Positions 46,385-49,442 of a stretch of 64,000 nt of DNA are shown here, piece after piece. The stretch covers positions 248,001 to 312,000 of the forward strand of contig NZ_RZHG01000007.1 in the NCBI RefSeq assembly GCF_003989795.1, read 5' to 3'. The DNA comes from Vreelandella andesensis (GTDB lineage: Bacteria > Pseudomonadota > Gammaproteobacteria > Pseudomonadales > Halomonadaceae). The translations under genes were made by a program, and so were the position numbers. Numbering within the stretch: position 1 is the first letter of the stretch; each line of letters starts with the position of its first letter. The notes below the pieces were generated by a model. That model had not been told where the DNA came from. It saw only the letters and a program-made list of their open reading frames with translations, and did not search any database.

Positions 46385-46410
46385 GATCAGGCACCCTAGG
46401 GTGCCTGATC
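46385..46410. terminator. Perfect 26-bp palindrome between convergent lolA and rarA
   Basis: GATCAGGCACCCT and its exact reverse complement abut with no spacer. The last 15 bases lie inside rarA and include its stop codon. It has no adjacent T-run on either strand. It probably ends both transcripts as a hairpin, but the lack of a U-tract makes this uncertain. Confidence 0.6.
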
Positions 46411-47730
46411 TGCTTCCTGGTCACGTTGTTCCCGCCACGTCATTATCTCACCAAAGCGTTTCTCCTGACCAAAGACGCTTGGTTCGTAAAAGCGCGTTTT
46501 AGGTAAGCCGTCTGGCCAGCAGTCATGAGCGCTGCCAGCAGGGTAGCCATAGGCTTCGTTATGCGCGTAGCGGTACCCTTCACCATGCCCTAGCTGCTCC
46601 ATTAACTTGGTAGGGGCGTTGCGCAGGTAGCTGGGGACCTCTAGCTGGGGTTGCTGCTGTACATACTGCTGGGCAGCTTTCCAGGCGCGGTCGATGCGAT
46701 TACTTTTTGGAGCAACCGCTAAATGAATGGCGGCGTGGGCAATCGCCCGCTGACCCTCATAATCACCTAGCCGTAAGTAGGCATCCCAGGCAGCAATGAC
46801 CAATGGCAGTGCCCGTGGGTCCGCATTGCCTACATCTTCTGAGGCAATTGCCGTTAAGCGACGCACAATATCAAGTGGATCGCCGCCCCCCTGTAAGAAG
46901 CGTGCCATATAAAGTAGGGCGGCATCAGGGCGTGACGAGCGTATCGACTTATGAAGTGCCGACAATAAGTCGTAGTAAGCGTCGCCCTGCTTATCAAAAG
47001 CGCTTGATTGATGCCCAACGACATCGGCTAGCACCGCTTTATGAAGCACTTCGCTATCACCACGTTGTTCAGTGAAGTCGCAGGCCGTTTCTAGCAGTCC
47101 CAGCGCGCGACGTGCGTCGCCAGCGCTGGCATGGGCAAGTACATCTAACACGCCCTCTTCTATTTCAATGCGGCGCTTCCCCAGGCCTTGCTGCGCGTCG
47201 TTCAATGCCTGAGTTAACACCTGGATAAGTTCTTCATGACTCAACGGTTTTAGTACATAGACTCGGGCACGTGAGAGGAGCGCCGAGTTAACCTCAAAAG
47301 AGGGGTTTTCTGTGGTTGCGCCGATCAGTGTGAGTAGTCCCGACTCTACATGGGGTAGCAACGCGTCCTGCTGGCTCTTATTCAGTCGGTGGATTTCATC
47401 TAAGAATAGGAGAGTCGTCGATGTGCGTTGCTGGGCTCGCTCAACGGCTGAACGAATGTCTTTTACGCCAGCCATCACAGCGCTTAAATGCTCAAGGTGG
47501 GCGCCTGAGGCACGTGCTAATAGCTCTGCCAGCGTGGTTTTCCCCACGCCAGGCGGCCCCCATAAAATCATTGAACGCACAACACCGGATTCTGCCATTC
47601 GGCGTAGAGGTTTATCAGGCCCGACTAATGCTTGCTGACCGACGTAATCGTTAAGGGTTAGTGGTCGCATACGGTAGGCAAGCGGCACGTCTTCACTCGT
47701 GGTGACCGACGCGCGGTCAAAAAGATCCAT
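46396..47730 (-). CDS. rarA: Replication-associated recombination protein A (RarA/MgsA)
   Basis: AAA+ ATPase of 444 residues related to clamp loaders, acting at stalled replication forks. Walker A is GPPGVGKTT, Walker B LLFLDEIHRLNKSQQD and sensor 1 IGATTENPSFEVN. The C-terminal tetramerisation region with AHAAIHLAVAPKSNR and GYRYAHNE is intact. The open frame begins at 47781, but MDLFDRASVTTSEDVPLAYR at 47730 is the family's normal start with AGAGA upstream, so I use that. Confidence 0.95.
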   Translation of the reverse strand: MDLFDRASVTTSEDVPLAYRMRPLTLNDYVGQQALVGPDKPLRRMAESGVVRSMILWGPPGVGKTTLAELLARASGAHLEHLSAVMAGVKDIRSAVERAQQRTSTTLLFLDEIHRLNKSQQDALLPHVESGLLTLIGATTENPSFEVNSALLSRARVYVLKPLSHEELIQVLTQALNDAQQGLGKRRIEIEEGVLDVLAHASAGDARRALGLLETACDFTEQRGDSEVLHKAVLADVVGHQSSAFDKQGDAYYDLLSALHKSIRSSRPDAALLYMARFLQGGGDPLDIVRRLTAIASEDVGNADPRALPLVIAAWDAYLRLGDYEGQRAIAHAAIHLAVAPKSNRIDRAWKAAQQYVQQQPQLEVPSYLRNAPTKLMEQLGHGEGYRYAHNEAYGYPAGSAHDCWPDGLPKTRFYEPSVFGQEKRFGEIMTWREQRDQEADQAP

Positions 47731-47985
47731 ATAAACGTTCTCTATAAATGTCCATCGTAAATCCAGCCGTTGAACAATCAACGATTAACATGTGTCTGTG
47801 GTAAATATTGTAACGTCGGGCTACCTTTGGGCATATCCGATTGATAAGCGTCTGCTTGCCTAGGTAATGTCAAAGGCGCATGGTAACGATTAACACCAGT
47901 GTAGTTGAACCCCGCTCATACTCACGTGCCCAAGCGTTGGTAGGGAATGGGCGAAAGGTAAGGCACTTACAAAGGAGACGGCAAG

Positions 47986-48531
47986 ATGTTAAACCAACTG
48001 CGTCTAGACCATGCCAACATGGCGCGAATGCTCCATGTGCTACAGCTTAAACACAAAACACTCGCGAGCGGTGAACGACCCGATTTCCAGTTGATGCGTG
48101 AGGTGGTGGACTACATTTTGTCCTATATGGATGGTTTTGCTTCACCGCTGGAAAAAATTTGCGTGGAGCGCCTGGAGCAGCAGGCCCCAGAGCACCTGCC
48201 ATTGATGGAGCAAATGGCAAGCGACTATCGTAAATTAAAGCCTCGTCTGTCCCGCTTATCCAACGATATCGACATGATTCTAATGGATAACGTGCTGCCC
48301 ATGGATCGCTTTGCAGAAGCATTGAAAGCGTACCTCGATGCACACCGTGCCTACCTTCGCCACGAGAGAGAAGGCCTGTTTCCGCTGATAGATAAACATT
48401 TTAGCGAAGACGATATGGAAGAGCTTCGTCAAGCGTTGCCCGAAGGGGCTGAAAAAGAGTTAGAGCGCCTACAGCAAGCATATCCAGAACTCTATGCTGA
48501 ATTACGTGGCGCCGAAGTGCCCTCAATGTAG
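47986..48531 (+). CDS. Hemerythrin-like four-helix protein with degenerate iron site
   Basis: A 181-residue helical cytoplasmic protein aligned by pattern with hemerythrin HHE proteins (MLNQLRLDHANMARML, then Y...(F)..P.E.....ERL, and ...E..LFPLIDKHF). The first ligand H9 is present, but the helix-2 HHPxE motif reads A52-S53-P54-L55-E56, the helix-3 His is Y81 and the helix-4 His is Y123. Only E56 and E127 of the later ligands remain. A typical diiron or oxygen-binding site is therefore unlikely. AAAGGAGA precedes the ATG, and a terminator follows, so it is an expressed single gene. Function unknown. Confidence 0.8.
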   Translation: MLNQLRLDHANMARMLHVLQLKHKTLASGERPDFQLMREVVDYILSYMDGFASPLEKICVERLEQQAPEHLPLMEQMASDYRKLKPRLSRLSNDIDMILMDNVLPMDRFAEALKAYLDAHRAYLRHEREGLFPLIDKHFSEDDMEELRQALPEGAEKELERLQQAYPELYAELRGAEVPSM

Positions 48532-48556
48532 CGTGCAAGCGGATCACTCAATGAGT

Positions 48557-48589
48557 AACGGGGCGTGTTAGACTAACGGCCCGTTTTTT
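48557..48589 (+). terminator. Terminator after the hemerythrin-like gene
   Basis: Outer stem AACGGG/CCCGTT (48557-48562, 48580-48585) enclosing a further GTTAG/CTAAC pairing, followed by a T-run to 48589. Confidence 0.8.
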
Positions 48590-48644
48590 ATTGGCGGCTT
48601 GAGAGGGATGGCGTGCACAAAGCGTATTGGATGGGTGAGCAGTG

Positions 48645-49442
48645 ATGTCAGGGCCTGTACTACTGTTTGATTCCGGTGTGGGCGGTCTTTCTGTGGCCCG
48701 TGCGCTTCGCCAACATTATCCGCGATTGTCAATGTGTTATGCCTGTGATAACGCGTGGCTACCCTATGGCCTGCGCGATGATGTGACGCTCTCTAAGCGT
48801 ATCGTCTCGGTATGCAAAGCGGCGGTGGCTGCCAGTCAGGCAAGTGTTTTAGTTGTTGCCTGCAATACTGCCAGCACCCTAGCGTTAGAAGGGTTGCGTG
48901 CAACGCTTGATATTCCGGTGATTGGAACGGTTCCTGCCATTAAGCCCGCTGCGTTGAATAGCCGGACACGCCATATCGGTTTGCTTGCCACAACGGCGAC
49001 CGTCAACAGGCCATATACTCAGGCGCTGATTAATAGCTTCGCAAGTGATTGCGTGGTCACTAAAGTGGCGGCGGATGCACTGGTCACTGAAGCGGAAGCA
49101 TGGCTTTCAGGCACACCGATCGATGAGCAGCGATTAAACCTAGCGCTAACGCCTTTATGGCAAGCGACCCAAGCCACGCCTGCGCTAGATACGGTAGTAC
49201 TGGGTTGTACCCATTTTCCGCTGTTGAAGCCTGAGTTAATTCGGCTCTCGCCGGTGCCCCTGGTATGGGTGGATTCTGGCGATGCCATTGCCCGTCGAGT
49301 AGGGCAGGTGGCGCCCACCTTAGTTAACGGCACCCAAGATGGACGTTGCTTCACGACAGCGCCAGCATTGCCGCTCATTAAAGGGTTAGCTCGCTTTGGC
49401 TTTCAAGCCCCGCAACGATTAACGATTCCTGACGCAGTGTAG
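48645..49442 (+). CDS. murI: Glutamate racemase
   Basis: Supplies D-glutamate for peptidoglycan. Cofactor-independent racemase of about 265 residues with both catalytic cysteines: VACNTAST and LGCTHFPLL. The start DSGVGGLSVARAL holds the catalytic Asp region. The frame also has a GTG three bases earlier; I choose the ATG at 48645. It lies between the hemerythrin-like gene and trmA on the same strand; trmA follows after 57 bp and could be co-transcribed. Confidence 0.95.
   Translation: MSGPVLLFDSGVGGLSVARALRQHYPRLSMCYACDNAWLPYGLRDDVTLSKRIVSVCKAAVAASQASVLVVACNTASTLALEGLRATLDIPVIGTVPAIKPAALNSRTRHIGLLATTATVNRPYTQALINSFASDCVVTKVAADALVTEAEAWLSGTPIDEQRLNLALTPLWQATQATPALDTVVLGCTHFPLLKPELIRLSPVPLVWVDSGDAIARRVGQVAPTLVNGTQDGRCFTTAPALPLIKGLARFGFQAPQRLTIPDAV

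Follow-up and report, generated by a model that had tools for sequence, protein, structure and literature searches.

Oxygen-binding hemerythrins are described as carrying the motif H-HxxxE-HxxxH-HxxxxD (PMC9388753), and 106 of them are reported with variant iron residues (PMC4919030). This motif was absent from the protein described here, a 181-aa member of the hemerythrin (HHE) family. Hemerythrin bundles with few ligands are already known. The second hemerythrin motif (H2) of Arabidopsis BTSL2 was demonstrated to lack a diiron centre (PMC12022348, PMC6717287). Like our protein, H2 of BTSL1/2 appears in these sources as a hemerythrin bundle that lost ligands and is still kept; it differs in lying within a three-bundle plant E3 ligase and in lacking the four conserved His (PMC6717287). 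A figure legend further presents BTSL H2 as devoid of the Fe-binding His and Glu (PMC6381054), whereas our protein keeps H9, E56, and E127. PG_0686 of Porphyromonas gingivalis is called non-canonical as well, and one His in it has a predicted part in diiron binding, but that protein is multi-domain, a reported diguanylate cyclase, and similar to the bacteriohemerythrin DcrH (PMC10101095). Meanwhile, the hemerythrin-like protein of Mycobacterium kansasii resembles ours in its four-helix bundle with a fifth helix and in a Tyr at the metal site, and differs in keeping four His and binding two irons. Its described ligand set comprises four His, two Glu, and one Tyr (PMC8913304), whereas three of the four His at ligand positions are missing from our protein.

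With the PF01814 proteins of the HHPxE type that end in a DPLFG..Y..LY tail, our protein shares the profile, the length, an ungapped alignment over residues 1–159, the residues H9, E56, and E127, an FP after helix 4, and the Y..LY part of the tail. It differs from them in the absence of H52, H81, H123, and DPLFG, and in the presence of invariant or nearly invariant H17, R38, H120, and R128. We found no publication on this derived relative of hemerythrin from the Halomonadaceae in the open-access literature. What is unusual here is the combination of a likely single loss, close preservation, a retained half-site, and a constraint that moved.

A hemerythrin-family gene lacking three of four ligand histidines

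The gene lies in a window of 64,000 nucleotides (the whole stretch of DNA that was analysed), which belongs to a genome of 3.9 Mb. Its open reading frame runs from an ATG to a stop codon at 48529–48531, and its features are collected in Table 1. The hairpin located 3′ of the frame has AACGGG..CCCGTT arms followed by a T run; the folded stretch 48548–48592 had a dG of −17.2 kcal/mol and a z of −3.55, and 0 of 200 shuffles were equally stable, though the hairpin was not among the matches of a simple terminator scan. The promoter scan listed no sigma70-like promoter for this frame. Among the named orthologues listed, the closest were those of Halomonas alkaliantarctica and Vreelandella alkaliphila (97%). 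Each of the 80 named orthologues is an open frame 180–181 aa long; together with the 118 distinct sequences introduced below, they rule out a sequencing or frame error.

Table 1. Positions, in the window, of the hemerythrin-family gene, its flanking signals, its diagnostic codons, and its neighbours
Feature	Position	Strand	Basis
rarA-like gene, divergent neighbour	46396..47781	-	adjoins in 80/80 named loci; start codon as listed
Shine-Dalgarno-like AAGGAG, ATG 8 nt further on	47972..47977	+	read from sequence
ORF, 181-aa hemerythrin-family protein (P0001)	47986..48531	+	ORF, Pfam match, orthologues
Codon H9, kept ligand of helix A	48010..48012	+	118/118 distinct orthologues
Codon H17, nearly fixed in clade	48034..48036	+	117/118; His in 0/30 intact relatives
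A52-S53-P54-L55-E56 in place of HHPxE, E56 kept	48139..48153	+	orthologue counts, ungapped register
Codon Y81 replacing helix-3 His	48226..48228	+	Y 118/118; H in 30/30 intact relatives
Codon H120, invariant in clade	48343..48345	+	118/118; intact relatives Q17 E7 L3 N1 T1 H1 (n=30)
Codon Y123 replacing helix-4 His	48352..48354	+	Y114 V4 of 118; H in 30/30 intact relatives
Codons E127 (kept ligand) and R128	48364..48369	+	118/118 each; intact position 128 E24 N5 Q1 (n=30)
Intrinsic-terminator-like hairpin and T run	48557..48592	+	RNA folding
murI-like gene, downstream neighbour	48642..49442	+	adjoins in 80/80 named loci

The Pfam Hemerythrin profile (PF01814) matched residues 2–135 of the protein with 33.7 bits (cut-off 25.3), as well as 56/56 members of alignment A2 at E<=0.1. 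An Apolipoprotein profile also matched 27 of these 56 members at E<=0.1, which we take as a sign of their shared helical make-up. There was no match in NCBIfam at E<=1, nor in PADLOC below an E of 0.04. Compared by profile with eight intact relatives, residues 1–159 aligned without gaps (probability 99.9, E 1.7e-34), which rules out that the ligands were displaced by misalignment.

AlphaFold2, run on 56 aligned orthologues, predicted the protein with a pLDDT of 84 and a pTM of 0.80 (residues 172–181 below 50). The model consists of long helices at 2–27, 34–66, 68–99, and 106–138 plus short C-terminal helices, and forms a four-helix up-down bundle like that of the HHE family. Foldseek with this model returned no match at E<=0.001; its best rows were 2p0n (0.012) and 3cax (0.05), which carry titles of uncharacterised proteins, followed by the FBXL5 hemerythrin domain (0.11). 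Both are presumably HHE proteins; their entries name no family. VIA-align placed these two above the rest (3cax, Z 15.8, rmsd 2.5, 156 aligned; 2p0n_B, Z 15.4, rmsd 2.9, 154 aligned), while the FBXL5 hemerythrin domain (Z 11.7, rmsd 3.4, 144 aligned) scored like unrelated bundles such as 8w6e (11.8). A sequence search of solved structures gave no match for our protein, for alignments A2 and A3, or for two intact relatives. Membership in the HHE family thus follows from the profile match and the ungapped alignment with intact members, to which the model adds a compatible bundle.

We presume, partly from the alignment of the HHPxE motif, that the canonical ligand positions correspond to H9, H52, E56, H81, H123, and E127. 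All six were invariant in 30/30 intact relatives, which served as the outgroup and were found with the derived clade's own profile, so that they do not form a random sample. Weaker or fused matches (L121–L124 and L187–L190) were left out before this count: L121–L123 read HHPKE, L187–L190 are ABC ATPase fusions without HHPxE, while L124 matched weakly and is unrelated. Our protein has lost H52, H81, and H123, all of them His, and keeps H9, E56, and E127; the HHE diiron set H..HxxxE..H..HxxxE is therefore not present.

The same substitutions recurred throughout the derived clade, represented by 118 distinct proteins drawn from 146 matches with profile E<=1e-40 among the loci collected. Position 52 was A59 T43 I9 S4 M2 V1, with H52 in 0/118, and E56 was replaced by D in a single protein. 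The most altered member, L177 (genome G754), reads FSKLLDE at 51–57, with P54L and E56D, and sits on an end branch of 0.79. Among the residues characteristic of the clade, R38 was found in 2/30 intact rows, H120 in 1/30, and H17 and R128 in 0/30, while D42, D96, and Y116 were also common in the intact rows (15, 10, and 16 of 30, respectively). H120 lies two helical turns ahead of E127 (about 10 Å along the axis by idealised helix geometry) and about one turn ahead of position 123, and may in part compensate for the missing helix-4 His.

These results agree in most respects with the initial annotation, which had reported an intact frame with a good ribosome binding site and a terminator, a helical framework (here a predicted one) fitting the HHE family, and ASPLE at 52–56 with Tyr at 81 and 123; all were recovered, the residues exactly as read, with ligands in register and substitutions shared by orthologues. 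Its statement that most iron ligands were lost holds for the His, three of four being gone, but not for the set as a whole, of which only three of six are missing.

Distribution and origin of the derived form

The clade profile matched 242 of the 250 genomes sampled in the GTDB family. The derived type, assigned by score, occurred in 232/250 genomes and in 18 of the 24 genera sampled; the residue-by-residue reading covered part of these 232 genomes, namely the 118 distinct sequences. The ten other matching genomes comprised six of genus g338, of which five were fetched (L182–L186, all HHPLE), and four of g337, in which the HHE domain precedes an ABC ATPase (Pfam covered one of them). The profile search of the 250 genomes gave no match in eight: four further genomes of g337 and a single genome from each of g348, g349, g352, and g354. 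A single match per genome was the rule (241/242), with two in G718.

In a careful tree, from which 15 trait columns were removed and seven long rows were left out, a branch supported at 100/100 separated the 43 derived rows from all others, on a stem of 2.33 changes per column. The next join, of the derived clade with g338 and f37, had a support of 92/77, and that of g338 with f37 had 93/61; this part of the tree carries a warning of long branches meeting, and the named outgroup did not form a clean side, one row being misplaced. A quick tree of all rows and columns likewise put the derived rows on one side (100) and left the sister open. The likeliest history suggested by these sequences is a single loss of the ligand His on the stem of the core Halomonadaceae, while an ancient paralogue, rather than a loss in an orthologue, is possible. 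Recent paralogy with the second HHE gene of the genome was not supported. That gene, L081 (146 aa), is the only other PF01814 match of the genome; it has the canonical ligand pattern, matches the solved HHE structure 6q09 at 1.6e-6, and gave no match to the clade profile at E<=0.001.

The gene order was rarA-like (-), hemerythrin-family gene (+), and murI-like (+) in all 80 named loci; the names of both neighbours are presumed from their sequences. In g338, which belongs to the same GTDB family, the intact HHE gene follows a rarA-like gene on the same strand in 5/5 loci. This same-strand arrangement also occurred in the derived loci L093–L095, L171, L174, and L181, while none of the eight f37 loci showed a rarA-like neighbour within about 1.5 kb. 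Identity to the rarA-like protein of the window was 50–54% in the same-strand loci (50–52% in g338) versus 72–94% in the 80 named loci, and the place may therefore not have been inherited whole. Position thus provides moderate evidence for the orthology of the intact gene of g338. The neighbouring genes give no hint of a function for the hemerythrin-family protein.

One derived copy (L092) was found in a genome of another family (G230, family f20). It is nested among Halomonadaceae copies and lies beside a heavy-metal P-type ATPase gene; it probably reflects a horizontal transfer or a misassigned contig.

Selection and displacement of the constraint

The dN/dS ratio was 0.017–0.050 in the seven of 11 relative pairs in which it could be computed, with dS below 1 in three of these and near saturation in the rest. 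Such values indicate that the hemerythrin-family gene is under purifying selection. Along with the same place in 80/80 named loci, they support the initial view of a maintained rather than decaying gene.

We compared conservation along the bundle, using an axis coordinate on an idealised scale of 1.5 Å per residue with the metal layer at zero. The difference in entropy between site and top was +0.13 in the derived clade (43 rows, mean identity 59%; draws of eight rows, −0.10 to 0.23), and −0.43 and −0.25 in the intact f37 (eight rows, mean identity 57%) and g338 (five rows), respectively. The constraint was thus greatest at the metal layer in the intact f37 family, but not in the derived clade. 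A difference between the derived and the 13 intact rows as large as observed was reached in 3/5000 position permutations, and in 70/5000 when the ligand columns and position 53 were excluded. Polar residues that face inward and are nearly invariant in the derived clade comprised R6, H9, E56, Y81, and E127 at the old site and, in the layer above, R38, D42, D96, Y116, and H120. Meanwhile, outward positions at the top of the bundle were no more conserved than in the intact family, so that a large partner interface is unsupported. Judging by these conservation patterns, the constraint has moved from the metal layer into the adjoining interior.

The derived clade can be regarded as a clean natural experiment: its diiron site was probably lost only once, intact relatives occupy a similar place in another genus of the family, and many descendants are preserved. 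Together with a shift of constraint that can be measured inside the bundle, this makes the fate of a diiron fold after the loss of its metal site testable.

Proposed role and alternatives

We propose that an ordinary HHE protein lost three of its four ligand His on the Halomonadaceae stem, amid much other change, and that the altered places then hardly changed, as the residues and the tree suggest. With one His and two Glu left, the assembly of a diiron pair would most likely be impossible; a diiron centre is unlikely because three of the four His are gone and position 52 is free to vary. The old cavity would be held by a polar network, H9-E56-Y81-H120-(Y123)-E127, under a layer formed by R38, D42, D96, and Y116, whose burial is suggested by idealised helix geometry. 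The protein would then most likely act as a helical-bundle binding or regulatory protein, in which the polar core either accommodates a small ligand or fixes a conformation. To the reading of a Halomonadaceae form of HHE that lost its ligand His, holds a polar network, and most likely performs no iron-oxygen chemistry, we assign a probability of about 0.55. The network is the most economical reading because H9, E56, and E127 stay, whereas a mere scaffold should have tended to shed its buried charges along with H52. Since the altered form was closely preserved after an old loss of three of six ligands, the protein probably does something other than handle an iron pair.

If the core had only a structural role, H9, E56, and E127 should drift; their retention is thus also compatible with a metal site that persists. 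The non-metal variant of the initial annotation goes beyond this evidence, since one His and two Glu are kept and an altered single-metal site is possible. It can be put forward only tentatively that the diiron centre was converted, in an ancestor of the core Halomonadaceae, into a new buried His/Glu/Tyr site (H9, E56, Y81, H120, E127, and perhaps R38, D42, and D96 above them) for one metal or a small ligand, which would give the hemerythrin fold a new activity. The main rival to the network is a rebuilt site in which H9, E56, and E127, together with H120 and/or a tyrosinate at Y81, would coordinate one metal (Fe, Mn, or Zn), and we hold it to be possible but the less likely case. The invariance of H9, Y81, H120, and E127 in 118/118 proteins, and of E56 in 117/118, while H52 relaxed, speaks for it, as does the position of H120, where 24/30 intact relatives carry Gln or Glu; a Tyr ligand is, moreover, described in the hemerythrin-like diiron site of M. 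kansasii (PMC8913304). Yet Y123 is Val in 4/118 proteins, one member combines E56D with P54L, and idealised helix geometry spaces H120 and E127 about 10 Å apart along the axis; His120 in one of the 30 intact relatives also need not signal a new one. That a diiron centre is still held, with Tyr81 and Tyr123 replacing two His, seems very doubtful. Both ligand carboxylates are kept and the M. kansasii protein accepts a Tyr ligand, but it is described with four His besides that Tyr (PMC8913304), whereas ours lacks three; all 118 proteins carry Ala, Thr, Ile, Ser, Met, or Val at position 52, and Y123 is not fixed.

A protein-binding regulator that works like Rsd/AlgQ (PF04353) is improbable. Rsd/AlgQ proteins are helical bundles. 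They bind sigma70 (PMC3089606), and their family overlaps in sequence with ligand-poor HHE proteins: L278 passes both cut-offs (PF04353, 38.0 bits, cut-off 35; PF01814, 32.8 bits, cut-off 25.3), and L260 passes the PF01814 cut-off and has a sub-cut-off Rsd_AlgQ match. From these sequence overlaps, the Rsd/AlgQ anti-sigma family and the ligand-poor HHE proteins may share an origin. However, our protein had no Rsd_AlgQ match at E<=1, and the conservation of its outward surface is not raised. That it replaces a missing Rsd was ruled out, as an Rsd_AlgQ gene is present at another place in the genome (151 bits). It is hardly credible that the gene is dispensable or decaying, or that an error of sequencing or alignment is involved: the further altered L177 and the eight of 250 genomes without a match would agree with decay, but this is contradicted by the 242 matching genomes, by the 80 named frames of even length at the same place, and by the low dN/dS in seven of 11 pairs.

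Ligand-poor HHE proteins in the wider sample and their annotation

At the level of the class, 61 of the 81 PF01814 matches from 66 genomes contained a loose H..HxxxE/D..H..HxxxE/D pattern, and 20, our protein included, did not. A column-by-column count of ligands was not used, since it loses register on distant HHE types (L081 was misread). Visual inspection of the 20 showed at least five to be fragments, cut by the flank, or in the wrong frame (L229, L254, L268, L286, and L288), while about 14 more have the look of genuine variants, so that HHE proteins poor in ligands are not rare. Pfam-based annotation would name our protein a cation-binding hemerythrin, yet the motif behind that name is absent from it; by score, this concerns 232/250 genomes of the family.

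The collected loci also included PF01814 domains fused to an ABC ATPase. In L187 (706–2118 on the minus strand, 471 aa), the one member searched, the ATPase is most similar to LivF; L188–L190 and L121 are HHE–ABC ATPase fusions as well. The HHPxE region of L187–L190 reads HSQPxE and their helix-3 His is apparently Tyr, representing a second, separate degenerate HHE, while L121 reads HHPKE.
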